Assembly (NCBI RefSeq): GCF_006381105.1
Contig: NZ_VDET01000037.1
Span: 1 to 64,000, forward strand
Length of the DNA: 64,000 nt
Source: Flavicella sediminum
GTDB taxonomy: Bacteria > Bacteroidota > Bacteroidia > Flavobacteriales > Flavobacteriaceae
Direction of reading: 5' to 3'
A model generated the notes under the pieces. The model saw nothing but the letters and a program-made list of their open reading frames with translations, was not told the origin of the DNA and did not search any database. The translations under genes were made by a program, and so were the position numbers. Shown one piece after another: positions 25,160 to 47,996 of this stretch. Position 1 is the first letter of the stretch. Each line of letters opens with the position of its first letter.

Positions 25160-25183
25160 TTATTTTTATTTAATCTAAATAAG
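25160..25183 (-). promoter_or_regulatory. Iron-box-like element, site 1 (TTATTT-N11-AAATAA)
   Basis: Read on the minus strand the 24 bases start CTTATTTAGATTAAAT and end AAATAA. The element lies between the -7 box and the ATG of the first TonB receptor, a repressor position. It shares its core with 34419-34442, 34490-34513 and 41014-41037. Confidence 0.55.
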
Positions 25184-31061: not shown

Positions 31062-33257
31062 ATGCTCAAAAAATTATGGAGATATAGTCATTTAACACTG
31101 ACTGTATCTTCTTCTTTATTTTTATTATTAGCTGCTATTACAGGAGCTTTTTTGGCTTTTAAACCCATTCAAGAAAAACTACAACCTTTTAAAATAAATG
31201 CTGTTGAAGAAATTGCTGTGTCTCAATTAATAGAAACACTACAGGCAAAATATGATGAAGTTTTAGAGCTTGAGGTGGATAAAAACTATTTTGTAAAAGC
31301 AAGTGTTTTTAGTATGGACAAGGAGTTGAATGCTCCGTTTTTTATGGATCCTATTACTGGAACTAAAATTGGAGACATTCCAAAAGCCAATCCTTTTTTT
31401 GAGTTTTTAACCGACTTTCATCGTTCTTTATTTTTAAAAACTCCAGGAAGAATATTTGTAGGAATTACTTCTTTTTTACTTTGTTTAATTGCTATTACAG
31501 GTTTGTTGTTGGCCATAAAAAGGCAAGGTGGTTTTGTAAAACTGTTTTCTAACATCATCAAGGATAAATCGGTTCAATACAACCATGTAGCTTTGGGGCG
31601 AATTTTATTGATTCCCATTTTTATTATTGCGCTTTCAGGAACGTATTTATCTATGGATCGATTTTCTTTATTACCTGCGGAAGCGAGAGTAATTAGACAT
31701 AATGAAATGAAAAGTGAAACAATTCCCTTTGCCGATTTTGAGATTTTTAAAAATACTACTTTAAAGGAGGTCACAAAAATTGAGTTTCCGTTTTCTACAG
31801 ATGCCGAAGATTATTTTACCTTGATTTTAAAGGATAGAGAACTCCAAGTTCACCAAAAAACAGGTGCTATTGTAAAAGAAACTGTTTTTCCATTTGTGCA
31901 GCTTTTATCGGTGCTGAGTTTTAATTTGCACACAGGGGCAGGAAGTGTTCTTTGGTCGTTGGTTCTATTTATAAGCTCGTTGGGTATTTTATATTTTATG
32001 TATTCGGGTACGGTTATTTCTATTCAGCGTTTGCGTGGTAATACCAAAAATAAATGGAAAGCCCATGAAGCGAATTTGGTTATTTTAACAGGTTCGGAAA
32101 ATGGAAGTACCAAAAGCTTGGGTAAAATTTTGTACAAAGCCTTATTAAAGGAGAATAAAAAAGTTTTTTTGGATGATTTAAATAATTATCAAAGCTATAA
32201 AAACATGGAGCAGCTGCTTATTTTAACAGCTACTTACGGAGATGGTGAACCACCAAGCAATGCAAACTTGTTTTTAAAAAAGTTAGAAGAAATTTCAATT
32301 GAAAAGACGTTTGAATGTCATGTTTTAGGATTTGGGTCTTTTTCATATCCAGACTTTTGTGCCTTTGGAAAGGAAGTATACCAAAAAGTAGTCGCACATG
32401 AAAAAATACAGGTTCCACAAAAAGAAGCCTTGTTAATTCACAATCAAAATTACAAGCAGTTTAAAGATTGGGCTACGAATTGGGGAAAATCATTAGAAAT
32501 AAGTTTGTCCTTACCTGCGGAATTGACTTCAAAAAAAAACAAAGAAATTCTTTTTAAAATAAAGGCGAAGCAAAGTGTAAAAGATGCTTTTGATGAAACC
32601 TTTACATTGACCTTAACTTCTGAAAAAAAACAACATTTTTTACCGGGTGATTTGTTAAGTATTATTCCTCCAAACGAAAATATTGAACGTTTGTATTCCA
32701 TTGGAAAAACAGCAGAAGGTGATTTGTTATTAAGTATAAAAAAACACGAGCTAGGAATTTGTTCTAATTATTTAAATGAATTAAAAGTTGGAGAAGAGTT
32801 TGAAGGGACCATTCAGCAAAACAAAGCCTTTCATTTGCCTAAAAAACCAAAGAATGTAGCTTTAATTGCCAATGGAACAGGTATTGCCCCGTTTTTAGGA
32901 ATGATGCATGAAAAAACAAATACAAAATGTACTTTGTATTGGGGGACAAGAACTTTTGTTTCTTTGGAATTGTATAAAAACAGCATTATAAAAGCACATC
33001 AAAAAGGAAATTTGCAAAGTTATAATTTTGCCTTTTCTAAGGAAAAAAGTGATTTTAGCTATGTACAAGATTTTATTCAAAGAGATGAAAAAGACCTGGT
33101 AGCCCAATTGAAGGAAGGAGATTGTTTAATGCTATGCGGTTCTATTGCCATGAGAGATACCGTTTTTAAGCAATTAGATGAAATTTGTTTGAAGTATGAT
33201 TTGGAAACTTTGGAGTTTTATAAAAATAAAGGGCAAATTTTAACAGATTGTTATTAG
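31062..33257 (+). CDS. PepSY-TM / flavodoxin / ferredoxin-NADP reductase fusion, putative ferric-siderophore reductase
   Basis: The 731-residue inner-membrane protein has three parts. First is a PepSY-TM region (about 1-325) with four hydrophobic helices and conserved histidines in DFHRSLF, YNHVALG and NLHTGAG that could ligate haem. Second is a flavodoxin-like FMN domain (about 340-475, ILTGSENGSTKSLGKILYKAL, LTATYGDGEPPSNA). Third is a flavoprotein reductase domain (about 495-731) with RLYSIGKT for FAD, NGTGIAPFLGMM and CGSIAMRDTV for NADPH. The architecture matches sulfite reductase flavoprotein-like/XusC-type proteins, so it may reduce ferric siderophores in the periplasm using cytosolic NADPH. 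Confidence 0.88.
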   Translation: MLKKLWRYSHLTLTVSSSLFLLLAAITGAFLAFKPIQEKLQPFKINAVEEIAVSQLIETLQAKYDEVLELEVDKNYFVKASVFSMDKELNAPFFMDPITGTKIGDIPKANPFFEFLTDFHRSLFLKTPGRIFVGITSFLLCLIAITGLLLAIKRQGGFVKLFSNIIKDKSVQYNHVALGRILLIPIFIIALSGTYLSMDRFSLLPAEARVIRHNEMKSETIPFADFEIFKNTTLKEVTKIEFPFSTDAEDYFTLILKDRELQVHQKTGAIVKETVFPFVQLLSVLSFNLHTGAGSVLWSLVLFISSLGILYFMYSGTVISIQRLRGNTKNKWKAHEANLVILTGSENGSTKSLGKILYKALLKENKKVFLDDLNNYQSYKNMEQLLILTATYGDGEPPSNANLFLKKLEEISIEKTFECHVLGFGSFSYPDFCAFGKEVYQKVVAHEKIQVPQKEALLIHNQNYKQFKDWATNWGKSLEISLSLPAELTSKKNKEILFKIKAKQSVKDAFDETFTLTLTSEKKQHFLPGDLLSIIPPNENIERLYSIGKTAEGDLLLSIKKHELGICSNYLNELKVGEEFEGTIQQNKAFHLPKKPKNVALIANGTGIAPFLGMMHEKTNTKCTLYWGTRTFVSLELYKNSIIKAHQKGNLQSYNFAFSKEKSDFSYVQDFIQRDEKDLVAQLKEGDCLMLCGSIAMRDTVFKQLDEICLKYDLETLEFYKNKGQILTDCY

Positions 33258-34418: not shown

Positions 34419-34442
34419 TTATTTGAAATTAATCTAAATAAG
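34419..34442 (-). promoter_or_regulatory. Iron-box-like element, site 2 (TTATTT-N11-AAATAA)
   Basis: On the minus strand it reads CTTATTTAGATTAATT followed by TCAAATAA, with perfect TTATTT/AAATAA ends 11 bp apart. It lies just upstream of the -33 element (34443) of the DUF4856-imelysin operon. Confidence 0.55.
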
Positions 34443-34489: not shown

Positions 34490-34513
34490 TTATCTTTAAA
34501 CAATCTAAATAAG
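34490..34513 (-). promoter_or_regulatory. Iron-box-like element, site 3 (TTATTT-N11-AGATAA)
   Basis: On the minus strand it reads CTTATTTAGATTGTTT followed by AAAGATAA, one mismatch from the consensus right half. It lies between the -7 box and the ATG at 34518, in the 5' leader. Confidence 0.5.
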
Positions 34514-34517
34514 AATT

Positions 34518-35750
34518 ATGAAAAGTATTAATTTCACAACTGGAGTTATCGTTGCAATTTCAAGTATGTTTGTAGCCTGTGATAACGGAGAAGATCTTCA
34601 GGATATAATTAATAAAGTAGAGGATATTGAAACAGGTTTTACAGTTCCTTCAACGTATAACTTTACAAGAGGTGGAAATACAACAGTAAGTTTTAGTGGA
34701 CAAACAACACGTTTGTCAATGGCTAAAGAAGTACTTAATTATTTAGCGGTTGACTCAGGTAAATCTGCACAAGAAATTGAGGCGGCTTTTGCGCATACTA
34801 CAGGTGCGAATGATTTTACAGATACAGATTTAAATGCTTCTGATAAAAGTGTAAAAAGTAAAGTAGCAGCATCGGACGATTTGTTTGGTGAGGATGCCGT
34901 AACAAAAGGAGCAATTCAAGCTGATTTTTCAGAATATATTTCAAATCAAGTTAGTGAAGTTGTACCTAATAAAGATGTGGAAGCAACTGCTGGAACAGCG
35001 GGATATATTGGTTCAAAACCTAGATATGTAAATGGAAAAGGAATTGAATACAACCAAGTATTTAACAAAGGAATGATTGGAGCTTTGGTTATGGACCAAG
35101 TTTTAAATAACTATTTAGGAAATATACGTGTATCAAATGAAGATTATATTTCTAAAAATAATGCAGAGACTTTAGAGGAAGGAAAAAATTACACAAAATA
35201 TGAGCACCATTTTGATGAAGCTTATGGATATGTTTATGGTGATGCTACTGTAGATTCTGAAAGCCCAATTGATAGAGCAGGGGATAAATTTTTATTCAGC
35301 TATATCACGCAGGTAAATGCAGATACAGATTTTGAAGGAATTCAAAATCAAATTTTTAAAGCATTTGTATTAGGTAGAGCGGCAGTTGTTGCTAATGAAT
35401 ATGAAGTGTTAAACAAAGCAATTGACGTATTGCAGTACCAAATATCTAAAGTAGTAGCAGTTAGAGCGGTTCACTATTTCCAAGCAGGTAAAGTTTCTTT
35501 GGCTGCAGATGATTATGAATCAGCATTCCATGCATTGTCTGAAGGTTACGGGTTTTTATACAGCTTACAGTTTTCAAGAAATCCTGTTACAGACGCTCCT
35601 TATTTTACTTTTGAAGAAGTAACTACTTTGTTAGATAAATTGGAAGCAGGTAACGGTTTTTGGGATTTAAAAGATGGAACTGTTTTAGATGAGGTTTCGA
35701 ATGCTATTTCTGCAAAATTTGACTTTACAACTGCACAAGCGGCTAATTAA
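34518..35750 (+). CDS. DUF4856 lipoprotein
   Basis: The 410-residue product has a lipoprotein signal (about 1-21, lipobox SMFVAC). The mature part starts with acidic residues and has the DUF4856 pattern VPSTYNFTRGGNTTVSFSGQTTRLSMAKEVLNYL, GKGIEYNQVFNKGMIGALVMDQVLNNYLGN and HHFDEAYGYVYGDATVDSE. The function is unproven, but in Bacteroidota these genes sit with imelysin proteins and TonB receptors, and the fold may be imelysin-like. A surface or periplasmic iron-related role is inferred from that context and from the two iron-box-like elements at its promoter. Confidence 0.88.
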   Translation: MKSINFTTGVIVAISSMFVACDNGEDLQDIINKVEDIETGFTVPSTYNFTRGGNTTVSFSGQTTRLSMAKEVLNYLAVDSGKSAQEIEAAFAHTTGANDFTDTDLNASDKSVKSKVAASDDLFGEDAVTKGAIQADFSEYISNQVSEVVPNKDVEATAGTAGYIGSKPRYVNGKGIEYNQVFNKGMIGALVMDQVLNNYLGNIRVSNEDYISKNNAETLEEGKNYTKYEHHFDEAYGYVYGDATVDSESPIDRAGDKFLFSYITQVNADTDFEGIQNQIFKAFVLGRAAVVANEYEVLNKAIDVLQYQISKVVAVRAVHYFQAGKVSLAADDYESAFHALSEGYGFLYSLQFSRNPVTDAPYFTFEEVTTLLDKLEAGNGFWDLKDGTVLDEVSNAISAKFDFTTAQAAN

Positions 35751-35775
35751 TTATCTTAAATTTAAAGTATAAAAT

Positions 35776-35812
35776 AAAGTGTTTGAAGATGCTTAATTCT
35801 TCAAACACTTTG
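35776..35812 (+). terminator. Hairpin between DUF4856 and imelysin genes
   Basis: A perfect 14-bp stem AAAGTGTTTGAAGA / TCTTCAAACACTTT with an 8-nt loop. It lacks a long T tract, so it may be a partial terminator or an mRNA-stabilising hairpin. Confidence 0.6.
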
Positions 35813-35848
35813 TCTAAATTTGCAATCCCTACTAAAAGCGTCTAAATC

Positions 35849-36949
35849 ATGAAAAAAATAGGTCTTTTTTTAATTATTGTTACAGTTCTTGTTTCTTGCG
35901 GAACAGAGGGGACGAGTAGCTGTACAAATGATTCTTTTGATAGGAAAGCCATGTTAGAAAACTGGGCAAATAATATTATTATTCCTTCATTTGAAAATTA
36001 TGATGCATTGGTTAGTACCTTAAAAACCGATGTAACTACTTTTTCAACAACGCCAAATCAAAATAATTTAGCGCAAGCAAGAAGTTCTTGGTTGTTAGCT
36101 TATAAGGCTTGGCAACAAGTTGCAATGTTTCAAATAGGAGAGGCTGAAGTAATTCGATTAAAAGAATATTCAAATTCTTATCCTGTTGATGCTGTAGGAG
36201 TGGAAAGTAATATTTCTTCAGAAGTATACGATTTAGCATTGTCTACTCAAATTAATAGACAAGGATTTCCTGCCTTAGATTATTTGTTAAATGGCTTAAA
36301 AGATACGGATGCTGAAATCATCACAACTTTTAGTGCAACTTCTTATAAAAACTATGCAAACGCTGTTGTAGATCGATTGAAACTTATGTCTACAGCTGTT
36401 GTTACAGATTGGAAAACAAACTATGCTGCTATTTTTATAGCCAACGATTGTTCTTCTTCAACTTCTTCAGTAGATAAATTGGTAAACGATTTTATTTTCA
36501 ATTTTGAAAAAAACATAAGAGTGTCTAAAATTGGAAATCCGATTGGTTTTTTTACCAATACTCCAATTCCTGAAGCTGTAGAAGCTTTTTATAAAAAAGA
36601 TGTTTCTAAAGAATTATTCCTTACTGCTGTGAATACTTCTAAAGATTTTTTTAACGGAAAACATTTCAATTCAAATACAGAAGGGAAAAGTTTAAAATCG
36701 TACCTAATAGAATTACAAGTTGAAGCTGGTGGTAAAAATTTAAGTGACTATATTGTAGAAAAGTTTGACAAAGTTTTGACATCTGCAAATGCTTTAGATG
36801 CCAATTTTTATGCACAAATAATAAGTGATAGAGCTGTATTTATAGCTTTGAGAGAGAATGATTTACATCCTTTGTTAGAGGTTATGAAAACCAATATGTT
36901 ATCGGCTCTTGATATCAAAGCAGACTATAATGATTCTGATGGTGATTAG
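35849..36949 (+). CDS. Imelysin family lipoprotein
   Basis: The 366-residue lipoprotein (lipobox TVLVSC, Cys17) has the imelysin all-helical fold. Visible signatures are NNLAQARSSWLLAYKAWQQVAMFQIG near the first half, and the second signature INRQGFPALDYLLNG at about 140-155, where many family members have GxHxxE/GxxAIEFLL. Imelysins (IrpA, ICMP-like) are iron-regulated and proposed to bind iron or siderophores outside the membrane. It lies between the DUF4856 gene and the second TonB receptor. Confidence 0.9.
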   Translation: MKKIGLFLIIVTVLVSCGTEGTSSCTNDSFDRKAMLENWANNIIIPSFENYDALVSTLKTDVTTFSTTPNQNNLAQARSSWLLAYKAWQQVAMFQIGEAEVIRLKEYSNSYPVDAVGVESNISSEVYDLALSTQINRQGFPALDYLLNGLKDTDAEIITTFSATSYKNYANAVVDRLKLMSTAVVTDWKTNYAAIFIANDCSSSTSSVDKLVNDFIFNFEKNIRVSKIGNPIGFFTNTPIPEAVEAFYKKDVSKELFLTAVNTSKDFFNGKHFNSNTEGKSLKSYLIELQVEAGGKNLSDYIVEKFDKVLTSANALDANFYAQIISDRAVFIALRENDLHPLLEVMKTNMLSALDIKADYNDSDGD

Positions 36950-36981
36950 ATTTATAAAAAAAATAATAAAATAGATATAAG

Positions 36982-37014
36982 GTTCAGGATAATTCATTAT
37001 TCTGGACTTTTTTT
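36982..37014 (+). terminator. Rho-independent terminator/attenuator between imelysin and TonB receptor genes
   Basis: An 11-bp stem GTTCAGGATAA / TTATTCTGGAC (two G-U pairs), a 4-nt TTCA loop and T7, 24 bp before the TonB receptor ATG. No separate promoter is seen between it and that ATG, so it may attenuate rather than end transcription. Confidence 0.75.
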
Positions 37015-37037
37015 GATGTTTACAATACGTAACAACA

Positions 37038-39488
37038 ATGAGCTTAAAGCAAATCCTACTGTTCACATTAATTTTAGTTCCTGCACTTATTTTTTCTCAG
37101 GAAAAGTTAACTGTTAAACTGACTATAAATTCTGAAGAAAATTTGACGGGCATTTCAAATGCACAAGTGTACTTAAAATCAGGAAAAGATTTAGGAAGTA
37201 CGGATGAAAATGGAATGTTGTTTTTTGAAGCGGAAGAAGGGAAAAATTATCAAATAGTCGTTTTTTCTTTTGAATATAAAATTTTTCAAACGTCAATAAT
37301 TCCTACTAAAAACTCTAATAAGTACAGCTTTGAATTGGCTCATTTAGGGGAGAATTTAGATGAAGTCCATGTCTCAGGCAATAAAAGGAAGTTCTTTAAC
37401 CTAGTTCGTTTAAAAAATGTAGAAGGAACGGCCATTTATGCAGGAAAGAAAACAGAGGTTGTTTTGGTTGATCAAATTGTGGGTAATTTGGCCTCAAATA
37501 ATGCGCGTCAAGTAATGGCGCAAGTAGTGGGCTTAAATATTTTTGACGCTGGAGATGGAGGTTTACAACTAAGTATTGGAGGAAGAGGTTTGGATCCTAA
37601 TAGAACATCTAATTTTAATACACGTCAAAACGATTATGATATTAGTGCAGATGTTTTGGGCTACCCAGAAAGTTATTATACACCTCCTGCGGAAGCACTT
37701 TCAGAAATACAAGTAATTCGTGGTGCAGCTTCTTTGCAATATGGAACACAATTTGGTGGTTTGATTAATTTTAAATTAAAAGAACCTGTAAAGGATAAAG
37801 AAATCGAAGTTATTTCAAGACAAAATATTGGGTCTTATGGATTGTTTACCAGTTTCAATAGTATTTCAGGAACGGTAGATAAAAAGTTCAGCTACTATGC
37901 CTATTACAATTACAAAAAAGGAGATGGGTATAGAGCCAATTCTAATTTTGATTCAAAAAACTTGTTTGCTCAAATTGGTTACCAGTTTTCTGAAAAAACA
38001 AAATTAGTTTTTGAAACCACCTATTTAGATTATTTAGCCAAACAATCTGGTGGACTTTCAGACAAGCAATTTTTAGAAAATCCACGACAAAGCAATAGAA
38101 CAAGAAATTGGTTTGCTGTAAATTGGCAATTAATGGCGTTGAAATTCACACATAAATTTTCAGAACAAACAGATTTTAGCTTCAATTTATTTTCATTAAA
38201 TGCGAATAGAAAAGCTTTAGGTTTTAGAACCAATCCCAATTTTGACAATCCAAATGCACTTACAGATATTGATGAAATGGATAGCAATGGTGATTTTTTG
38301 CACGAAAGAGATTTGCTAGTTGGGCAATTTAGAAATTGGGGTATTGAATCTCGTTTGCTAACACGTTACCATGTTGGTGAAAAAGATGCTGTATTTTTAA
38401 TAGGAGCAAAGCTTTACAAAGCCAATAATTCATCAGAACAAGGCTCAGGAAGTAAAGGCGTAGATGCTGATTTTTCTTTTTATAAAGAAACCTATCCAGA
38501 TTATTCTAGCCAATCTTCTTTTAAATATCCAAACTTTAACGTAGCCATTTTTGGCGAGAACATATTTAACCTTTCAGATTCCTTTTCTTTAACACCAGGT
38601 TTTCGTTTTGAATACATTAAAACAATATCAGAAGGAGCGTATTTAAATGCAAATACAGGAAATTTTGTCGATGATAACAATCGCTTCAATCGAAATATTT
38701 TATTATTGGGTTTAGGTGCTAGTTATAAACCAGATAATTACTTTGAGGCTTATGCCAACATTTCACAAAATTATAGATCGGTTACTTTTAGTGATATTCG
38801 TGTTACAAGTCCTTCTTTTTCTGTGGCAGATGATATAACCGATGAAAAAGGATTTACTTCTGATATTGGAGTAAGAGGGAAAATAGGAACATCATTTTCT
38901 TATGATAGTAGTGTTTTTGGCTTGTTATATGATGGAAAAATTGGAACTAATTTTGAAGATAGAATAGGTTGGATTAGAGACAATATTGGTACAGCAGTTG
39001 TGTATGGTTTTGAAACCCTATTGGACTGGAATATAAAAGACACATTTTGGGAAAATAGCAATTATAAGTTGAACACTTTTGTTAATATAGCTTTTACTGA
39101 TTCAGAATATACCAAGTCGAAATTTAATGGAGTTGAAGGCAAAAAAGTTGAATTTATTCCTTTTGTGAATTTAAAAACAGGAATTGGTTTTGGCTATAAA
39201 AACTTTTTGGGTAGTCTTCAGTACAGCTACCTTTCTCAACAATATACCGATGTAACGAATGCAGAATATGACCCTCACAATAATTCTTCTGTTAAAGGGG
39301 CAATACCCGCCTATGATATTTTAGATTTTTCTGTTTCTTATGTGTATAAAAATATTAAATTAGAAACCGGAATAAATAATGTACTGAATAAAAGTTATTT
39401 TACCAGAAGAGCAACGGGTTATCCAGGACCTGGTATTATCACTTCCGATCCGGCTACTTATTATTTAACTGTACAATTTAAAATTTAA
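37038..39488 (+). CDS. TonB-dependent receptor, FecA-like
   Basis: The 816-residue outer-membrane protein has a signal peptide (about 1-20, LFTLILVPALIFSQ), a short carboxypeptidase-regulatory-like domain (25-105), and a plug domain starting near LVDQIVGNLASNNARQVMAQVVGLNIFDAGDGGLQLSIGGRGLDPNRTSNFNTRQ. A barrel follows, ending in YYLTVQFKI. The plug pattern RGLDPNRTSNFNTRQNGYDI-like resembles FecA-type iron(III)-dicitrate receptors. It follows the DUF4856 and imelysin genes and precedes a haem-binding domain gene by 5 bp, so it belongs to an iron-uptake operon. Confidence 0.92.
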   Translation: MSLKQILLFTLILVPALIFSQEKLTVKLTINSEENLTGISNAQVYLKSGKDLGSTDENGMLFFEAEEGKNYQIVVFSFEYKIFQTSIIPTKNSNKYSFELAHLGENLDEVHVSGNKRKFFNLVRLKNVEGTAIYAGKKTEVVLVDQIVGNLASNNARQVMAQVVGLNIFDAGDGGLQLSIGGRGLDPNRTSNFNTRQNDYDISADVLGYPESYYTPPAEALSEIQVIRGAASLQYGTQFGGLINFKLKEPVKDKEIEVISRQNIGSYGLFTSFNSISGTVDKKFSYYAYYNYKKGDGYRANSNFDSKNLFAQIGYQFSEKTKLVFETTYLDYLAKQSGGLSDKQFLENPRQSNRTRNWFAVNWQLMALKFTHKFSEQTDFSFNLFSLNANRKALGFRTNPNFDNPNALTDIDEMDSNGDFLHERDLLVGQFRNWGIESRLLTRYHVGEKDAVFLIGAKLYKANNSSEQGSGSKGVDADFSFYKETYPDYSSQSSFKYPNFNVAIFGENIFNLSDSFSLTPGFRFEYIKTISEGAYLNANTGNFVDDNNRFNRNILLLGLGASYKPDNYFEAYANISQNYRSVTFSDIRVTSPSFSVADDITDEKGFTSDIGVRGKIGTSFSYDSSVFGLLYDGKIGTNFEDRIGWIRDNIGTAVVYGFETLLDWNIKDTFWENSNYKLNTFVNIAFTDSEYTKSKFNGVEGKKVEFIPFVNLKTGIGFGYKNFLGSLQYSYLSQQYTDVTNAEYDPHNNSSVKGAIPAYDILDFSVSYVYKNIKLETGINNVLNKSYFTRRATGYPGPGIITSDPATYYLTVQFKI

Positions 39489-39493
39489 TAATT

Positions 39494-39934
39494 ATGAAAT
39501 CGAAAATGAAAAAAATAGGTGTTGTTTTAATAATAGCACTTGTTGTAATGCAATTTATTAGACCGGACAGAACTTATGTGGCCGTTGATACTCAAACAGA
39601 CTTTTTATCTGTTACACAGGCACCAGAAAATATAGCGGCAATTGTTAAAAAGAACTGTTACGATTGTCATTCAGACCAAACAGCATATCCTTGGTATACG
39701 AATGTAGCCCCTCTTTCATTTTGGATCAATCATCATATTGAAGAAGGGAAGGAACATTTAAATTTTTCTAATTGGACAAAATATCCTGCAAAAAAAGCAG
39801 CGCATAAATTGGAAGAATTTTTTGAAGAAGTAGAAGAAGGAAAAATGCCTTTAGAATCGTACACCTATTTGCATGGAAGTTTATCGGAAACAGATAAAAG
39901 TACATTGTTAACCTGGGTACAATCTATTCGCTAA
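39494..39934 (+). CDS. Haem-binding domain protein (monohaem c-type motif)
   Basis: The 146-residue protein has an N-terminal membrane anchor (about 6-23, IGVVLIIALVVMQFI) and one CxxCH motif, CYDCHSDQTAYPWYTNVAPLSFW. That matches the PF14376 haem-binding domain of Bacteroidota. It lies 5 bp after the TonB receptor, so it is the last gene of the operon, and it converges with the sterol-desaturase gene, which ends 7 bp away. It could pass electrons during periplasmic iron release; that is inference. Confidence 0.88.
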   Translation: MKSKMKKIGVVLIIALVVMQFIRPDRTYVAVDTQTDFLSVTQAPENIAAIVKKNCYDCHSDQTAYPWYTNVAPLSFWINHHIEEGKEHLNFSNWTKYPAKKAAHKLEEFFEEVEEGKMPLESYTYLHGSLSETDKSTLLTWVQSIR

Positions 39935-41013: not shown

Positions 41014-41037
41014 CTTATTTAGAACTAATCAAAATAA
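41014..41037 (+). promoter_or_regulatory. Iron-box-like element, site 4 (TTATTT-N11-AAATAA) at ferritin
   Basis: The element reads CTTATTTAGAACTAAT followed by CAAAATAA, with perfect ends 11 bp apart. It ends 4 bp before the ferritin -7 box, so it covers the -33 region. Confidence 0.55.
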
Positions 41038-41041
41038 TGAT

Positions 41042-41049
41042 TATATTTG
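41042..41049 (+). promoter_or_regulatory. -7 element of ferritin promoter
   Basis: TATATTTG matches the TAnnTTTG consensus. No TTG is seen at -33, where the iron-box-like element sits, so the promoter may depend on a regulator. The 5' leader would be about 55 nt. Confidence 0.6.
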
Positions 41050-41110: not shown

Positions 41111-41611
41111 ATGAATACAGTTATTGAAGGTTTATTAAATGATCAAATAAAATACGAAGCAAAAGCTTCTATGCAATACTTAGCGATGGCTTCTTGGGCA
41201 GATGCAAGTGGCTATAACGGAGTGGCTACTTTTTTTTACAACCAGTCAGAAGAAGAGCGTTTGCATATGACCAAATTAGTGAAGTTTGTTAATGAACGTG
41301 GCGGTCAAGTAATTATTTCAGAGTTAGAAAAACCAAAAGCTGTTTTTGAATCTTTAAATGAATTGTTTGAAACTTTTTTAAGCAGCGAGATTTTTGTTAC
41401 CGAACAAATTAACAAAGTAATTTTTGAATGTTTGCAAAACAAAGATTACAACGTTCATAATTTTATGCAGTGGTATGTTACCGAACAATTAGAAGAAGAG
41501 GCTTTGGCAAGAACACTTTTAGATAAATTAACAATTATTGGTGGCGATAAATCTGGGCAATATTTATTTGACAGAGATATAAATACCATAGCAGCAAAAA
41601 ATACACTGTAA
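41111..41611 (+). CDS. Ferritin (FtnA-like)
   Basis: The 166-residue non-haem ferritin has all six ferroxidase-centre residues of E. coli FtnA, offset by one: E16, E49, H52, E93, Q126 and E129. It forms a 24-mer cage that oxidises and stores iron in the cytoplasm. The gene follows two iron-uptake clusters and has an iron-box-like element over its promoter. Its stop codon overlaps the ATG of a small Cys/Lys-rich ORF (TAATG), so the two should be translated together. Confidence 0.96.
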   Translation: MNTVIEGLLNDQIKYEAKASMQYLAMASWADASGYNGVATFFYNQSEEERLHMTKLVKFVNERGGQVIISELEKPKAVFESLNELFETFLSSEIFVTEQINKVIFECLQNKDYNVHNFMQWYVTEQLEEEALARTLLDKLTIIGGDKSGQYLFDRDINTIAAKNTL

Positions 41612-41751
41612 TGAGCTTTTTGATTATTAGTAGTCCATCTATACCTATACAAACAGCTTGCAACTTAAGTTGTGGTACTAAGAAAAAGAAATGTTGTAAA
41701 AAGTATAAAAAGAAGGGGAAAGTTAATTGTAAAAGTTGCCCGAAGATATAA
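41611..41751 (+). CDS. Cys/Lys-rich micro-protein translationally coupled to ferritin (46 aa)
   Basis: The ATG overlaps the ferritin stop codon by one base (TAATG). The 46-residue product has a short hydrophobic N-terminus (MSFLIISSPSIPI) and a tail with six cysteines (17, 21, 28, 29, 40, 43), including CGTKKKKCCKKYKKKGK and a CKSC pair, and about a dozen lysines. It ends just before a strong terminator, so it is inside the ferritin transcript. I do not recognise a named family. Metal (iron, zinc or copper) binding or an Fe-S site is suggested by the cysteine pattern. Confidence 0.7.
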   Translation: MSFLIISSPSIPIQTACNLSCGTKKKKCCKKYKKKGKVNCKSCPKI

Positions 41752-41756
41752 TTTAT

Positions 41757-41794
41757 AAAATCCTGTAATAATTTATTAATTACAGGATTTTTTT
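41757..41794 (+). terminator. Rho-independent terminator of the ferritin operon
   Basis: A long stem AAAATCCTGTAAT / AATTACAGGATTTT with an 8-nt loop and a T run, right after the micro-protein stop. The next about 100 bp up to the MerR promoter hold no gene. Confidence 0.9.
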
Positions 41795-41928: not shown

Positions 41929-42819
41929 ATGAACACTATTAAAAATACTTTTACCATTTACGACCTTGAAATATTAAGCGGAATTAAAGCGCATACCATA
42001 CGAATTTGGGAAAAGCGATACGCCGTATTTAATCCAGATCGTATCAATAGAAATGTTCGTATTTATAGCCTGTTAGATTTACAAAAAATGCTAAACCTTA
42101 GTCTTTTGTACAATCATGGGATAAAAATTTCAAAATTAACAGATTTGTCTGATCGTGAATTGGCAGACAAAGCAAAAGAAGTTGCCTTAGAAGGAATAGC
42201 CAATAATTATCAAATAAATGCACTTATTGTTAGCATGTATACCTTTGATGTAGCTGTTTTTCAAGATGTATATTTAGAAGAAATAAAAAATAATTCTTTC
42301 GAAACTATTTTTATTTCAATTTACTTACCCCTTTTAAAGCATATTGGCGTTTTGTGGCAAACAGAATCTATTAAGCCTGCGCATGAACATTTTATTTCAA
42401 ATTTAATTTACAAAAAAATTAGTTTGCATATCTCCAAGTTGCCAAGGATAGAAGACACAACAAAAACAGTACATGTTTTATTTTTACCTGAAGGAGAAGG
42501 ACATGAAATTGGTTTGTACTTCCTAAATTATTATTTGTTAAGTAAGGGGCAACGCACTATTTACTTAGGACAAAGTATTCCTTTTGAAGATTTGTTTTTT
42601 ATCAATTCTCAATTTCAAAATATTCAATGGGTAAGCTCATTTGTAATTGACTTGGTTCCGAAAGCGAAAAAGCAATTTGTGATTAATGCCGCAAAATTAT
42701 TAGAGAATACCAAAAATAATTTTTGGATTATTGGAAGTATTTGGGACGATTTTGAAAAGAAAAACCTACCTAAAAATATTAGTTTTTACAATGGTTTTAA
42801 GGAACTTATAAAATTATAA
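41929..42819 (+). CDS. MerR family regulator with B12-binding domain (CarH/LitR-like)
   Basis: The 296-residue protein has an N-terminal MerR winged helix (about 8-75, TFTIYDLEILSGIKAHTIRIWEKRY). Next comes a helical cap with the CarH signature W-x9-EH (W143, E153, H154), then a cobalamin-binding Rossmann domain with E-x-H-x-x-G (E190-G195, His192). Those residues hold adenosylcobalamin in the light-sensing repressor CarH, where His in both segments ligates cobalt. It lies immediately upstream of, and on the same strand as, the carotenoid operon. Light-controlled repression of crt genes is the natural hypothesis; B12-independent variants exist, but the motif is intact here. Confidence 0.88.
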   Translation: MNTIKNTFTIYDLEILSGIKAHTIRIWEKRYAVFNPDRINRNVRIYSLLDLQKMLNLSLLYNHGIKISKLTDLSDRELADKAKEVALEGIANNYQINALIVSMYTFDVAVFQDVYLEEIKNNSFETIFISIYLPLLKHIGVLWQTESIKPAHEHFISNLIYKKISLHISKLPRIEDTTKTVHVLFLPEGEGHEIGLYFLNYYLLSKGQRTIYLGQSIPFEDLFFINSQFQNIQWVSSFVIDLVPKAKKQFVINAAKLLENTKNNFWIIGSIWDDFEKKNLPKNISFYNGFKELIKL

Positions 42820-42867: not shown

Positions 42868-44334
42868 ATGAAGAAAACAATAAAAATATTAGGATCCGGA
42901 TTTTCGTCTTTATCAGCTGCTTGTTATTTAGCCAAAGAAGGACATGACGTGAGCGTTTATGAGAAAAACGCAACTATAGGTGGTAGGGCACAGCAGTACA
43001 AAAGAGAAGGTTTTATTTTTGATATGGGGCCAACATGGTATTGGATGCCTGATGTTTTTGAACGCTTTTTTGCAGATTTTGATAAAAAACCGTCAGATTA
43101 TTATCAGTTGGAGAAATTAAATCCAGCCTACAAAGTCTATTATGATGTCAATGATTTTATTGCCATTTCTTCCAACTTAGATGAAATTTATGCTTTGTTT
43201 GAAAAAGAAGAAACTGGAAGTTCCGTGGCTTTGAAAGAGTTTTTAAGCAAAGCAGAAAGTAATTACAATGTGGCTGTCAAAGATTTGGTGTACCGCCCAG
43301 GTGTGTCTCCTTTAGAATTAATCAGCCCAAAAACTGTGACAAAACTAAATCAATTGTTTTTTGATATTCGCAGACAGATCAAAAATAAATTTTCCAATCC
43401 ACGACTCATTAAAATACTTGAATTCCCTGTACTTTTTTTAGGGGCAAAACCTGGCAATACACCTGCGATGTACAATTTTATGAATTGGGCAGATTTTGGA
43501 TTAGGTACCTGGCATCCAAAAGGAGGTATGTTTGAAGTGGCCAATGGTATGGCTACTTTAGCGAAAGAATTGGGAGTGAAATTTGTACTGAATTCTCCTG
43601 TAGATAAAATTTCAGTAAATGAAAAAGGAGCTGCTATTGGCATTACTGTTCACAACAAACTGATTCCTGCAGACATTGTCTTAAGCGGTGCCGATTATCA
43701 TCATACAGAGAAATTATTGGACTTTAAATTACGCCAGTACTCTGAAAAATATTGGGAAAAGAAAACTTTTGCCCCCTCTTCTCTATTATTTTATGTAGCT
43801 TTCGATAAAAAGTTAATCAATGTTGCGCATCATACGTTGTTTTTCGACAAAGAATTTGACTCACATGCGGAATATATTTACGATACGCCTGCTTGGCCAA
43901 AAGATCCTTTATTTTATGCTAGTTTTCCTAGTATGTCTGATGATACTTTTGCTCCACAAGGAAAGGAGGCTGCAACTTTTTTAATTCCAATTGCGGCCGG
44001 ACTAGATGATACGCAAGCACATAGAGATGCTTATTTGAAAATAATTTTAGAAAGATTAGAAAATTTAACCAAGCAAAAATTGACAGATGACATACTTTTT
44101 GTGAAATCCTATTGTGTTAAAGATTTTATAGAGGATTATAATTCGTATAAAGGAAATGCTTACGGTTTGGCGAATACCTTAACACAGACGGCTTTTTTAA
44201 GACCTAAAATTAAAAGTAAAAAAGTAGGCAATTTATATTTTACAGGACAATTAACAGTACCAGGACCAGGAGTTCCACCAGCTCTGATTTCTGGAAAAGT
44301 GGCCGCAGAATTAATTTTAAAACAGCTAAACTAA
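42868..44334 (+). CDS. crtI: Phytoene desaturase
   Basis: The 488-residue FAD-dependent desaturase converts phytoene to lycopene. The dinucleotide fold is at the N-terminus (IKILGSGFSSLSAACYLAKEGHDVSVYEKNATIGGRAQQY), with DMGPTWYWMPDVFERFF next. The CrtI C-terminal signature is near residue 460 (NLYFTGQLTVPGPGVPPALISGKVAAELI). The frame opens at 42838, but the ATG at 42868 starts the FAD motif directly and follows the promoter, so it is preferred. Its stop overlaps the crtB start (TAATG). Confidence 0.95.
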   Translation: MKKTIKILGSGFSSLSAACYLAKEGHDVSVYEKNATIGGRAQQYKREGFIFDMGPTWYWMPDVFERFFADFDKKPSDYYQLEKLNPAYKVYYDVNDFIAISSNLDEIYALFEKEETGSSVALKEFLSKAESNYNVAVKDLVYRPGVSPLELISPKTVTKLNQLFFDIRRQIKNKFSNPRLIKILEFPVLFLGAKPGNTPAMYNFMNWADFGLGTWHPKGGMFEVANGMATLAKELGVKFVLNSPVDKISVNEKGAAIGITVHNKLIPADIVLSGADYHHTEKLLDFKLRQYSEKYWEKKTFAPSSLLFYVAFDKKLINVAHHTLFFDKEFDSHAEYIYDTPAWPKDPLFYASFPSMSDDTFAPQGKEAATFLIPIAAGLDDTQAHRDAYLKIILERLENLTKQKLTDDILFVKSYCVKDFIEDYNSYKGNAYGLANTLTQTAFLRPKIKSKKVGNLYFTGQLTVPGPGVPPALISGKVAAELILKQLN

Positions 44335-45173
44335 TGAAAGCACTCTATGATGAGATCTCTTTTCAGAGTTCAAAATTAATCACCAAAAGTTACAGTACTT
44401 CATTTTCTATAGCCGTTCGTTTATTGGCGCCTAGTATCCGACAAGCCATTTATAATATTTATGGTTTTGTGAGGTTGGCCGATGAAATTGTGGATAGTTT
44501 TGAAGGTTATCCAAAAGAAATATTACTAGATCGTTTTGAAGAAGAATATTTTTTATCCTTAGAAACTAAAATTAGTACAAATCCTGTAACCAATGCTTTT
44601 TTACAAACGGTAATGGAATACAATATCGATCAAGAATTGGTAAAAGCTTTTTTAAAGAGTATGCGTGCCGATTTGACCAAGCAGGTGTATCAAAGTGAGG
44701 AAGAGGTAGCCGAGTATATTTATGGCTCTGCGGATGTGGTTGGTTTGATGTGTTTGAAAGTTTTTGTGAAAGGTGATGAAGATGCTTATCAAAAATTGAA
44801 AGAACCTGCTATGAAATTAGGGTCAGCTTTTCAAAAAGTAAATTTTTTACGCGATATGAAAGAAGATTTTGAAGAATTAAGTCGTACCTATTTTCCGGAT
44901 ATAAATCCGAAAACCTTGAGCAACGAAGATAAAAACAGAATTATTTCTGAAATTAATAAAGAGTTCGAAGAAGCTTATATGGGAATTAAAAAATTACCTA
45001 AAGAGGCTAAATTAGGTGTATTTGTAGCCTATCGCTATTATTTAAGGTTGTTGAAGAAAATTGAAAAAACACCTGCAAAAGTACTTTCAGAAAAGCGTGT
45101 TCGAATTTCGAATCTCTTAAAAACCTATCTGTTATTTCGCTCTTATGTCAAATTTCAATTAAAATATGTGTAG
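44334..45173 (+). CDS. crtB: Phytoene synthase
   Basis: The 279-residue squalene/phytoene-synthase-family enzyme condenses two GGPP molecules. The two Asp-rich motifs are RLADEIVDSF (DEIVD at 50-54) and NFLRDMKEDFEELSRTYFP. It is one base overlapping with crtI upstream and overlaps the next, unknown gene by 8 bp, so all are translationally coupled. No GGPP synthase gene is in the window. Confidence 0.95.
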   Translation: MKALYDEISFQSSKLITKSYSTSFSIAVRLLAPSIRQAIYNIYGFVRLADEIVDSFEGYPKEILLDRFEEEYFLSLETKISTNPVTNAFLQTVMEYNIDQELVKAFLKSMRADLTKQVYQSEEEVAEYIYGSADVVGLMCLKVFVKGDEDAYQKLKEPAMKLGSAFQKVNFLRDMKEDFEELSRTYFPDINPKTLSNEDKNRIISEINKEFEEAYMGIKKLPKEAKLGVFVAYRYYLRLLKKIEKTPAKVLSEKRVRISNLLKTYLLFRSYVKFQLKYV

Positions 45174-45609
45174 TTTTTATGTGATTTTATTTGTGAGTTT
45201 GTTTGGGCATTTGGAAACGAATCTGCCGGAGTTGGTAAACGAATTCCATCAATTAAATTCTGAAAAAACAGAAGAAATATTTATTCAGAAATATGAAAAT
45301 TTTGAAGATCCCTCTATTTTGGCCTATGTGTATGCCTTAAAAATGAAACAAGCTAGTTACACGTTAAATCCGTATACAAAATTGAAAATTTTTAATAACT
45401 CAAAAAAAGCTTTAAATAAGTTGATTACTGAAAATACAACAAATATACATTTGCGATATATCCGATTGATGTTACAGGAAAAAACACCTAAAATTTTAGG
45501 TTTCAACAATTTTATTACTTCGGATAAAGCTTTTTTATTAAAAAAAATGAAGATAAAAGACGAAACCGATTACTTAGATAAGTACATTTATAAAAATACT
45601 TCGTTATGA
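45166..45609 (+). CDS. Unknown protein embedded in the carotenoid operon (147 aa)
   Basis: The 147-residue protein has an N-terminal hydrophobic stretch (FYVILFVSLFG) that could be a signal peptide, then a helical body with TPR-like spacing (FIQKYENFEDPSILAYVYALKMKQAS, LKIFNNSKKALNKLITENTTNIHLRYIRLMLQEKTP). It overlaps crtB by 8 bp and crtZ by 4 bp. I do not recognise a family. Its strict coupling with crt genes implies a role linked to carotenoid synthesis or placement, but no activity can be inferred. Confidence 0.8.
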   Translation: MCSFYVILFVSLFGHLETNLPELVNEFHQLNSEKTEEIFIQKYENFEDPSILAYVYALKMKQASYTLNPYTKLKIFNNSKKALNKLITENTTNIHLRYIRLMLQEKTPKILGFNNFITSDKAFLLKKMKIKDETDYLDKYIYKNTSL

Positions 45610-46055
45610 TGATTATGACTTACATTTTTATTACACTCCTTACCTATATCCTTATGGAAGTGGCTACTTGGTTAACGCATAAATATGTGATGCATGGTTT
45701 TTTGTGGGCGCTACATGCCGATCACCATCAACCTAAATATGCGGGCGTTTTTGAAAAAAATGATGCCTTTTTTGTGATTGGTGCAATTCCCAGTATTACC
45801 TTGTTTTATTATGGGGTTCATCCTGAATTTAATTATAAATTTTTTATTGGCCTTGGCGTTTTATTTTATGGAATTACCTATTTTTTAATTCATGACGTTT
45901 TAATTCATCAACGGTTCAAATGGTTCAAACACACAAAAAATAAATACTTATTAGGTTTGCGTAAAGCACATAAAATTCATCATAAACATTTAGGAAAAGA
46001 ACATGGGGAGTGTTTTGGAATGCTAAATGTTCCAAAGAAATATTTTAATAGATAG
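45606..46055 (+). CDS. crtZ: Beta-carotene hydroxylase CrtZ
   Basis: The 149-residue integral membrane diiron hydroxylase converts beta-carotene to zeaxanthin through cryptoxanthin. The histidine boxes are visible: HKYVMHGFLWALHADHHQPK, HDVLIHQRFKW and KAHKIHHKHLGKEHGE, all conserved in CrtZ. It overlaps the unknown gene upstream by 4 bp and is 3 bp before the lycopene cyclase gene. Confidence 0.94.
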   Translation: MMIMTYIFITLLTYILMEVATWLTHKYVMHGFLWALHADHHQPKYAGVFEKNDAFFVIGAIPSITLFYYGVHPEFNYKFFIGLGVLFYGITYFLIHDVLIHQRFKWFKHTKNKYLLGLRKAHKIHHKHLGKEHGECFGMLNVPKKYFNR

Positions 46056-46058
46056 ACA

Positions 46059-46763
46059 ATGATGCAACCGCTCTATTTATATGTGCTAATAGGATCATTT
46101 AGCATTCCATTTTTATTCACTTTTTTCTGTATAGATTTTATTAAGAAGTGGAAGAATTTCTGTATTTCAACCTTGTGCATAGCATCCTTCTTTCTTATTT
46201 GGGATGCCATTTTTACAAATTTTGAAATTTGGGGTTTTACCCATTCCTATTGTGCGGGTTGGTATTTTCTTAAAATGCCTATAGAAGAGTGGCTCTTTTT
46301 TTTAGTCATCCCTTTTTGTAGCTTGTTTACACATTTTGCTTTTTTTTACGCTTTTCCAAAGCTTGTACTTAATAAAAAAGCAACAATTCTTATTACAGGT
46401 ATACTTGTTTGTGCAGCTGTGCTGTTGCTGATTTTTAATTATGATAAATGGTATACTTTGGTCAATTATGTTTGTTTTATTTTGGTGTTGATTTTTGGAT
46501 TGTTTCGTTTGCAATTATTGCAACAATTCTACATTTCGTTTCTAATCATATTGATTCCCTTTTTTTTAGTGAATGGAATACTTACCGGAATGCTAACAGA
46601 AATTCCGGTAGTGTGGTATGACAATACAGAAAATTTAGGAAGGCGAATAGTGACCATTCCTGTGGAAGATATAGGCTATGCTTTTTCCATGTTATTTGGT
46701 AATCTATTAATTTTTGATCTATTAAATAGAAGAGAAGAAAACAGAATTAGTAAAACTACTTAA
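46059..46763 (+). CDS. crtY: Lycopene cyclase, CrtYcd type
   Basis: The 234-residue membrane protein with six to seven hydrophobic helices is built like the fused heterodimeric CrtYc-CrtYd cyclases of Bacteroidota and archaea. The half-domain signatures PIEEWLFFLVIPFCSLFTHFAFF and PVEDIGYAFSMLFGNLLIFDLL are both present. It forms the beta rings of beta-carotene. It differs from the FAD-binding CrtY of proteobacteria. It lies between crtZ and the SRPBCC gene. Confidence 0.93.
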   Translation: MMQPLYLYVLIGSFSIPFLFTFFCIDFIKKWKNFCISTLCIASFFLIWDAIFTNFEIWGFTHSYCAGWYFLKMPIEEWLFFLVIPFCSLFTHFAFFYAFPKLVLNKKATILITGILVCAAVLLLIFNYDKWYTLVNYVCFILVLIFGLFRLQLLQQFYISFLIILIPFFLVNGILTGMLTEIPVVWYDNTENLGRRIVTIPVEDIGYAFSMLFGNLLIFDLLNRREENRISKTT

Positions 46764-46774
46764 AACAAAATTAA

Positions 46775-47263
46775 ATGTCAGTAAACATAATTTCTCATTC
46801 CAATATCTATACTTTGTCGGCGCAACAAGTCTTGCCAATTTCTATTTCAGAAGCCTGGAAGTATTTCAGTTCTCCAGAAAATTTAAAAGAACTAACGCCG
46901 CCAGAAATGCAAATGAATGTCACTTCTGGAAAACCAGAAAAAGCCTATGCCGGACAAATTATCACTTATAATTTAGCCGTAGCAAAAGGAATTCGAATCA
47001 ATTGGGTAACAGAAATTACACAAGTCCTACAAGAAAAAATGTTTATTGACGAACAACGTTTCGGTCCCTATAAAATGTGGCATCATGAGCATACATTTGA
47101 AAAAATTGACGAACACAGTTGTTTAATGAAAGATAAAATTTCATACAAATTACCACTGGGGTTTTTAGGGAAAATTGCACATGTTTTATTTGTAAAGAAT
47201 CAATTAAAAGGAATTTTTAATTTCAGAGAACAAAAAGTAAATGAAGTTTTTGGGAAGTTGTAA
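46775..47263 (+). CDS. SRPBCC family protein
   Basis: The 162-residue START/Bet v1-like protein has YTLSAQQVLPISISEAWKYFSSPENLKELTPPEMQMNVTSGKP, and HHEHTFEKIDEHSCLMKDKISYKLPLGFLGKIAHVLFVKNQLKGIFNFRE at the end. Such SRPBCC proteins bind hydrophobic ligands in a central cavity, and members next to crt genes are common. It could carry carotenoid or be annotated as a cell-division inhibitor; neither is proven. It is the last gene of the crt operon. Confidence 0.82.
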   Translation: MSVNIISHSNIYTLSAQQVLPISISEAWKYFSSPENLKELTPPEMQMNVTSGKPEKAYAGQIITYNLAVAKGIRINWVTEITQVLQEKMFIDEQRFGPYKMWHHEHTFEKIDEHSCLMKDKISYKLPLGFLGKIAHVLFVKNQLKGIFNFREQKVNEVFGKL

Positions 47264-47660: not shown

Positions 47661-47940
47661 AATATCTATTTATTTCTGATTCTGAAAGATTGTAATCGGT
47701 TACTTTATGGTGTTCTAAGATTTCTGCAATGGCATCCGTTTTAAACTTTAAAATGGCTTTGTTAAGATCTTTACCTTCTAAAAATTGTTTAAAACAAGTG
47801 TTGTTGTCGTTTTCTATTACCTCATTGGCAATATGCATGCTTTGTCTAAACAATACGACCAAACGAAATTTTTTCGTCTTGCTTTTTTTGTCATATCCAA
47901 AACCAAGGATGTAATTATTTCTAAATTCTGTTACTGTCAT
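47653..47940 (-). CDS. Hypothetical protein (95 aa)
   Basis: The 95-residue protein is of mixed charge, beginning MTVTEFRNNYILGFGYDKKSKTKKFRL and ending SESEINRYFE. It overlaps the His-rich gene by 8 bp, so the two are coupled and probably work together. No family is recognised. It is not clearly membrane-bound or exported. Confidence 0.72.
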   Translation of the reverse strand: MTVTEFRNNYILGFGYDKKSKTKKFRLVVLFRQSMHIANEVIENDNNTCFKQFLEGKDLNKAILKFKTDAIAEILEHHKVTDYNLSESEINRYFE

Positions 47941-47996
47941 GTATATTATATCTAAATAACCAATGTAATTTTTATTGGTGTCTGTTTTGTTTTTAA

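Follow-up and report, generated by a model that had tools for sequence, protein, structure and literature searches.

A 46-aa open reading frame (ORF) that begins in the stop codon of a non-heme ferritin gene of Flavicella sediminum is a coding sequence under purifying selection, and it belongs to a family of small, basic proteins that recurs behind ferritin genes in many genomes. It was found in a stretch of 64,000 nucleotides, referred to below as the window. The best explanation for it, to which sequence and analogy lend an even chance, would be an iron-starvation-induced [2Fe-2S] mini-ferredoxin that reduces the ferritin core, as Bfd does for bacterioferritin.

The ferritin gene, the microprotein and its family

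The ferritin gene (41111-41611, + strand; 166 aa) matched PF00210 in a Pfam scan (7.9e-35). Its top NCBIfam model was that of non-heme ferritin (NF007638), which it matched at 116.7 bits and thus under the threshold of 178; for the model of bacterioferritin, the score was 24.1 versus a cut-off of 125.55. The microprotein ORF (41611-41751, + strand) overlaps the ferritin stop codon by one base, the A that ends TAA and begins ATG (TAATG); its translation is MSFLIISSPSIPIQTACNLSCGTKKKKCCKKYKKKGKVNCKSCPKI (46 aa), with cysteines at positions 17, 21, 28, 29, 40, and 43 (C-x3-C-x6-CC-x10-C-x2-C). Approximately six bases after its stop codon, a probable intrinsic terminator was recognized by eye 3' of the gene pair (41757-41794, + strand), consisting of a hairpin with stem arms AAAATCCTGTAAT and ATTACAGGATTTT and a 9-nt loop, followed by a T-run; it was absent from the hairpin scan list, as the loop limit of that scan was 8. 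The position of the ORF, its overlap with the ferritin gene, the spacing of its six cysteines, and the distance from its stop codon to the terminator were all as the initial annotation had stated them. Ferritin and microprotein genes of the window look like one operon. For the window ORF, Pfam gave no match at E ≤ 1. The only other ferritin-family protein of this genome (L186, the second PF00210 place, contig C76) had a Dps-like look and adjoined a catalase-like frame (names by eye).

The ORF represents more than chance, since its frame, its last four cysteines, and its position after ferritin recur in many genomes and pN/pS is low. Indeed, pN/pS amounted to 0.07-0.28 in eight pairs of close homologues (pooled, 0.15), which had synonymous differences at 53-93% of sites, and to 0.30-0.36 between the window sequence and three relatives. 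A lack of conservation of the frame, the cysteines, and the position in relatives was what the initial annotation had named as refuting it; this check was run and did not refute it, as all three turned out to be conserved, the cysteines as far as the last four are concerned and not Cys17 and Cys21. Counts of length, charge, and cysteines were made on those 41 non-redundant proteins from the 63 gene-bearing ferritin loci for which a start ATG could be assigned. An alignment of the window protein and 38 relatives drawn from these (A5; 39 rows) displayed invariant K27, C28, C29, K33, K37, C40, C43, and P44. The six-cysteine pattern put forward earlier is hence present in the window, and as a conserved signature it was discarded, as Cys17 and Cys21 are variable in this alignment. 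The conserved unit consists of the last four cysteines, namely CC-x10-C-x2-C followed by proline (C28-C29-x10-C40-x2-C43, codons 41692-41739, + strand, with Pro44 next), and the window protein contains the family core CC-[KE]-K-[YF]-K-K ... C-x2-C-P. The second and third cysteines of the core were separated by x10 in 72 of 87 cores, by x8 in 11, and by x9 in four. The N-terminal half drifts among the homologues, and the number of N-terminal cysteines was zero in three, one in one, two in 20, and three in 17 of the 41 homologues, which had a mean net charge of +10.6 at a mean length of 47.

A tblastn search in 99 relatives gave matches in 37 genomes at E ≤ 1. Most of these first matches were due to chance, the motif (own pattern) being present in ten of the 29 loci from other genomes; in three of these ten (L002-L004) the microprotein gene was located behind a ferritin gene on the same strand, with a ferritin identity of 72-82%. 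When 397 genomes sampled from the same bacterial family were searched with a profile built from 11 sequences, 95 gave a match at E ≤ 0.01 and the other 302 gave none. The motif (own pattern) was then looked for in 90 of the 95 (all but G178, G254, G246, G250, and G206) and was present in 89, L118 being the exception. With a 26-column profile of the core, matches were obtained in 30 of 395 genomes sampled across the phylum, of which 26 belonged to the same family, three to other families of the class, and one, a weak match with an internal stop, to another class. The window genome itself had one microprotein match in each profile search. A profile scan of contigs resulted in 592 pattern matches, none of which was confirmed by tblastn, the query probably being too short. 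Annotation would likely miss members of the family or leave them as hypothetical proteins, because Pfam matches of the members scanned did not exceed chance level and none of their NCBIfam matches came close to its cut-off.

By eye, at least three subfamilies were distinguished. Subfamily A is the window type (37-57 aa). Subfamily B is longer, has a charged, lysine-rich N-terminal part, and ends in CPCFDLLKKVA or CPMFDLFKKTA; its open frames reach 88 aa, the start codons being provisional. The longer relatives have a stretch of mostly Lys, Asp, and Glu ahead of the core. Subfamily C carries a FYSxKSKDYLQLDGVV segment. In addition, two loci of another family of the same order (L008 and L009) contained a diverged x8 member with no ferritin gene in the flank covered and with a weak box of the type described below (four and three mismatches, respectively); the microprotein gene of L008 sits between genes taken to be gcvP-like and DnaJ-like. 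The family therefore also lives apart from ferritin.

Linkage to ferritin and the Fur-like box

In a set of loci chosen by ferritin and not by the microprotein (the best 80 of 129 found), a microprotein gene was present at most 420 nt downstream on the same strand in 63/80 loci and absent within that distance in 17/80. The earlier proposal that the microprotein acts with ferritin is thus supported by conserved adjacency, and the argument from strict coupling on which it was based fails in its general form. Ferritin can manage without the microprotein, or something else serves, since these 17 loci have no microprotein gene within 420 nt and 302 of the 397 genomes mentioned above gave no match. 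Genera with a ferritin-linked microprotein include Psychroserpens, Winogradskyella, Lacinutrix, Aquimarina, Maribacter, and Aurantibacter, and the ferritin nearest to that of the window was from Psychroserpens (85% identity over the best segment, 83% over 166 columns). Starting from the microprotein, a ferritin gene was located upstream on the same strand in 55 of 92 unique family ORFs, flanks of L001-L060 being approximately 1.5 kb, so that more distant ferritins fall outside; in 54 of the 55, the distance from the ferritin stop codon to the CC codons was under 400 nt. The phylum sample, a partly overlapping set in which seven of 29 loci (four of them ferritin-linked) were from genomes already counted, had ferritin upstream in 20 of the 29 motif-bearing loci.

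The seven members of subfamily C had no adjacent ferritin gene; in all seven, ferritin was located 20-28 kb away, and the ferritins of these genomes were 42-45% identical to that of the window. In three of the seven (L082, L085, and L091; about 1956-2560), the microprotein gene was directly 3' of a small ferredoxin gene. The ferredoxin of L082 is of the adrenodoxin type (best PDB match, 4.5e-12), with nothing in Pfam at 0.01; those of L085 and L091 were recognized by eye. This small ferredoxin could be the electron donor of the family. In three further members (L095, L114, and L119), the microprotein gene adjoined a gene for a DUF3050 protein, which bears a weak haem-oxygenase-like resemblance; the neighbour in L095 matched PF11251 at 3.4e-101, and those in L114 and L119 were recognized by eye.

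Upstream of the window ferritin gene, a Fur-like box (TTATTTAGAACTAATCAAAATAA; 41015-41037, + strand) starts 96 nt before the ATG and has one mismatch at the 17 fixed positions of the consensus TTATTTAGAnnnnnTnTAAATAA, which was read from the homologues. Just 3' of it, TATATTTG (41042-41049, + strand) resembles, by eye, the -7 element of Bacteroidota, the consensus of which is TAnnTTTG, and a similar layout of box and -7-like element was seen by eye ahead of the microprotein genes of many relatives. A Fur box has also been described for Riemerella anatipestifer, which we take to belong to the same order as the window organism. It reads ATTTAGAATTATTCTAAAT, as given in the available part of the source, with electrophoretic mobility shift assays (EMSA) on four promoters (PMC5609570).

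The box was found ahead of 70 of 92 family members at ≤ 3 mismatches, and in 50 of the 63 loci the microprotein gene had its own Fur-like box, located between it and the ferritin gene. At ≤ 2 of 17 mismatches, it occurred within 130 nt 3' of the ferritin stop codon in 45/62 microprotein-bearing loci, 0/17 loci without microprotein, and 0/79 random stretches, and before ferritin in 1/79 loci (L255, at a contig end, could not be scored before ferritin, hence the denominators 62 and 79). Since a separate box is present between the genes in 50/63 loci, the usual order is ferritin, gap, Fur-like box, and microprotein, and the two genes are, as a rule, probably under separate control. Only ten of the 63 loci were directly coupled (CC codons ≤ 130 nt from the ferritin stop codon), and three had neither a box between the genes nor close coupling. 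Coupling to ferritin, claimed earlier, holds in the window and fails as a general rule, and strict translational coupling was discarded as the point of the arrangement. Placed on the ferritin tree, the coupled state requires a minimum of four changes, and six on the best tree; these were counted against the 17 gene-less rows, with gains and losses not separated. Omitting the 53 uncoupled rows cannot have made the number smaller.

In the window, no box lies between the two genes, the best place having seven mismatches, and the box before ferritin itself would put the storage protein under Fur-like control, which would be odd. Among the ten other coupled loci, three (L218, L243, and L247) had a box with zero to two mismatches at -168 to -255 before ferritin, six had none before ferritin, and one was unscorable. 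A box before ferritin is not specific to coupling, because ferritin is likewise preceded by a box with ≤ 2 mismatches in four uncoupled loci (L206, L207, L208, and L226). In subfamily C, the box was found in 0/7 members at ≤ 3 mismatches (best, 4-7).

Over the whole genome, the box and its reversed control were equally frequent (24 matches each at ≤ 2 mismatches); it is therefore called Fur-like, and the case for it rests on its position. In the 64-kb window, 13 rows were found at ≤ 3 mismatches, palindromic sites being counted on both strands, compared with 3.6 expected, and none of 100 shuffles had as many. Further boxes of the window were located at 25160-25182, 34419-34441, 34490-34512, and 47937-47959. 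The first three stand ahead of genes of the iron-uptake type. One such row starts after the first box, at 25187, with a TonB receptor and includes a PepSY/flavodoxin-type reductase at 31062; the second and third precede a row of DUF4856, imelysin, TonB-receptor, and haem-binding genes (34518-39934); and the fourth overlaps the start of an ORF without assignment. The window is a neighbourhood of iron acquisition. A gene for a regulator with MerR and B12-binding domains (41929-42819), possibly of the light-responsive CarH/LitR type, is located between the ferritin pair and genes with crt-like names (42868-47263), which have the look of a carotenoid cluster.

The cysteine core and the FhuF cluster segment

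The available part of the source gives CC-x10-C-x2-C as the [2Fe-2S] ligand pattern of the Escherichia coli siderophore reductase FhuF, a cluster motif that it terms 'unprecedented', and describes the transcription of FhuF as derepressed at low iron via Fur (PMC8068687). The tail of E. coli FhuF (RRTCCQRYRLPDVQQCGDCTLK) was compared with ten other FhuF tails. Basic residues ahead of CC are common to these tails and the microprotein core. Likewise, the third residue after CC is aromatic in all but one of the eleven tails and mostly so in the microprotein family, and the last cysteine is mostly followed by proline in both. Five of the eleven tails end in C-x3-C and one has x11 spacing. A proline that is invariant in 11/11 FhuF tails is, in contrast, absent from the microprotein.

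When 18,950 NCBIfam models were compared with 48 cores, only TIGR03950 (43 cores), TIGR03951 (33), and PRK10647 FhuF (12) matched, all three being of the siderophore-iron reductase/FhuF type; the best E value was 0.0018 and all matches were far under the cut-off (for the window protein, 15.1 versus 137.9 bits). Of five fuller-length members, four matched TIGR03950 and nothing else, and one, from subfamily C, matched none. Pfam scans of members gave chance-level matches only, none of them to FhuF_C (PF11575). In hhalign comparisons, the core aligned with the six C-x2-C FhuF tails with a probability of 84 and a score of 22.2 (shuffles: mean 9.1, maximum 21.2) and with all eleven tails with a probability of 83 and a score of 21.7 (shuffles: mean 8.9, maximum 20.4); both times, the true core was above all 100 column shuffles in which the cysteines were kept in place. 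A hidden Markov model (HMM) of the FhuF tails scored single cores at a mean of 3.2 bits versus -1.6 bits for cysteine-fixed shuffles (standard deviation, 3.3), and 12/48 cores exceeded all 20 of their own shuffles. The FhuF likeness could be convergence, because this HMM separates single cores only weakly from the cysteine-fixed shuffles. The core and FhuF thus agree in ligand pattern and in local sequence style, common descent not being proven, and by the tests run the microprotein is not a member of FhuF_C or Bfd. A search of the PDB with the family profile gave no match at E ≤ 10, and AlphaFold2 (39 sequences) predicted a single helix (residues 22-34) with low confidence (mean pLDDT, 63.7).

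Possible roles and comparison with known systems

In the favoured mechanism, the small basic protein would hold a predicted [2Fe-2S] cluster via CC-x10-C-x2-C, without an FhuF domain. At low iron, the microprotein would be made via the Fur-like operator and would reduce the ferric core held in the adjacent non-heme ferritin by passing electrons to it, whereupon stored iron could exit as Fe2+; the lysine-rich surface may dock on the ferritin shell, the surface of which is presumed to be acidic. The initial annotation had offered an Fe-S protein or iron-release partner among several roles, and this reading now leads, as a hypothesis, owing to the [2Fe-2S] ligand pattern that the core has in common with FhuF. 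It is further favoured by the ferritin linkage, the Fur-like box, the ferredoxin neighbours in subfamily C, and the finding of no stand-alone Bfd in the window genome and of no FhuF_C over the cut-off in 60 genomes. Against this explanation, Bfd acts via a heme group, which non-heme ferritin does not contain. As a wider proposal, to which we give somewhat less than even credence, a dedicated electron donor would unload non-heme ferritin in many Flavobacteriaceae, in the form of a starvation-induced, stand-alone [2Fe-2S] carrier of approximately 45-70 residues with the FhuF motif, i.e. a second solution with a ligand motif other than that of Bfd.

Alternatively, the microprotein may be a redox-inactive metal carrier, four thiolates of which bind Fe2+ or Zn2+ and shuttle the metal to or from ferritin, or it may act as a small buffer. 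A cysteine-rich, ferritin-linked protein with a Fur-like box and with varying extra N-terminal cysteines (two or three in 37/41 homologues) would suit this role, and C-x2-C-P is a common metal knuckle. It is nevertheless unlikely, as the vicinal CC, the x10 spacing, and C-x2-C together form the FhuF [2Fe-2S] pattern and the Pfam and NCBIfam matches included no zinc-ribbon or metallothionein model.

Bacillus subtilis possesses the tiny, basic, Fur-regulated proteins FbpA, FbpB, and FbpC, which are involved in iron sparing under iron starvation and act with an sRNA. That the microprotein is such a Fur-regulated, iron-sparing, small basic RNA-binding protein, perhaps with a metal-sensing knuckle, is improbable. 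Its net charge and short length, the Lys/Asp/Glu stretch of the longer relatives, and the Fur-like box agree with it, whereas ferritin linkage in two subfamilies and invariant cysteines in the FhuF pattern are left unexplained. The likeness consists of tininess, basicity, and iron-starvation regulation, the last being predicted here from the Fur-like box; we know of no ferritin linkage of FbpA/B/C.

A split siderophore-iron reductase, in which the peptide would be the cluster arm acting on imported ferric siderophores and ferritin merely the next iron stop, has an even smaller chance. FhuF_C (PF11575) was over the cut-off in 0/60 genomes, that of the window included, and no intact FhuF was found in them, although this model of 21 positions was over the cut-off in only 3/14 control genomes, so that a miss is weak proof of absence. 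This result, the FhuF motif, and the presence of the same box before TonB-receptor and imelysin genes of the window are in line with a split reductase, but by eye no recurring FhuF-like neighbour was recognized at 20 non-ferritin loci, and the recurrent partner is ferritin. Finally, a conserved RNA or regulatory leader instead of a protein, conceivable for a very short ORF by a hairpin and a regulatory box, can practically be dismissed, given the pooled pN/pS of 0.15, the synonymous differences in the eight pairs, and the recurrence of one protein core in differing sequence surroundings.

To our knowledge, the mechanism of iron release from non-heme bacterial ferritins is unsettled, and no description of such a ferritin-linked microprotein was found in open PMC full text. 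The family provides a concrete and cheaply testable candidate for iron release, and the environmental bacteria concerned form a large group. Bfd is a Cys4 protein, and the mini-ferredoxin proposed here resembles it in being small, in its four conserved cysteines, in being encoded beside an iron-storage gene, and in the job proposed for it, ferric-core reduction. Regulation apart from the storage gene, as for Bfd, is suggested in most relatives by a separate Fur-like box, the pair of the window looking like an operon. A search for Fer2_BFD found no stand-alone Bfd in the window genome, the two places over the cut-off being parts of open frames with 841 and 1178 aa. As far as described in the available parts of the sources, the well-worked route of iron release is that of Bfd with heme bacterioferritin (PMC7760384, PMC7762939), in which the storage protein and its small [2Fe-2S] donor are adjacent and differently expressed (PMC7762939) and iron stays locked in BfrB without Bfd (PMC7760384). 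The partner of Bfd is a heme bacterioferritin, whereas the proposed partner of the microprotein is a non-heme ferritin, and Bfd has a recognized Fer2_BFD domain (PF04324), whereas the microprotein family had no Bfd match in Pfam scans. Compared with FhuF, the microprotein is a stand-alone, lysine-rich, 46-aa ORF without the whole FhuF reductase domain; if the proposed role is true, the FhuF cluster motif would work as a free-standing module of approximately 46 residues. The microprotein would work like Bfd, and it locally resembles FhuF_C.
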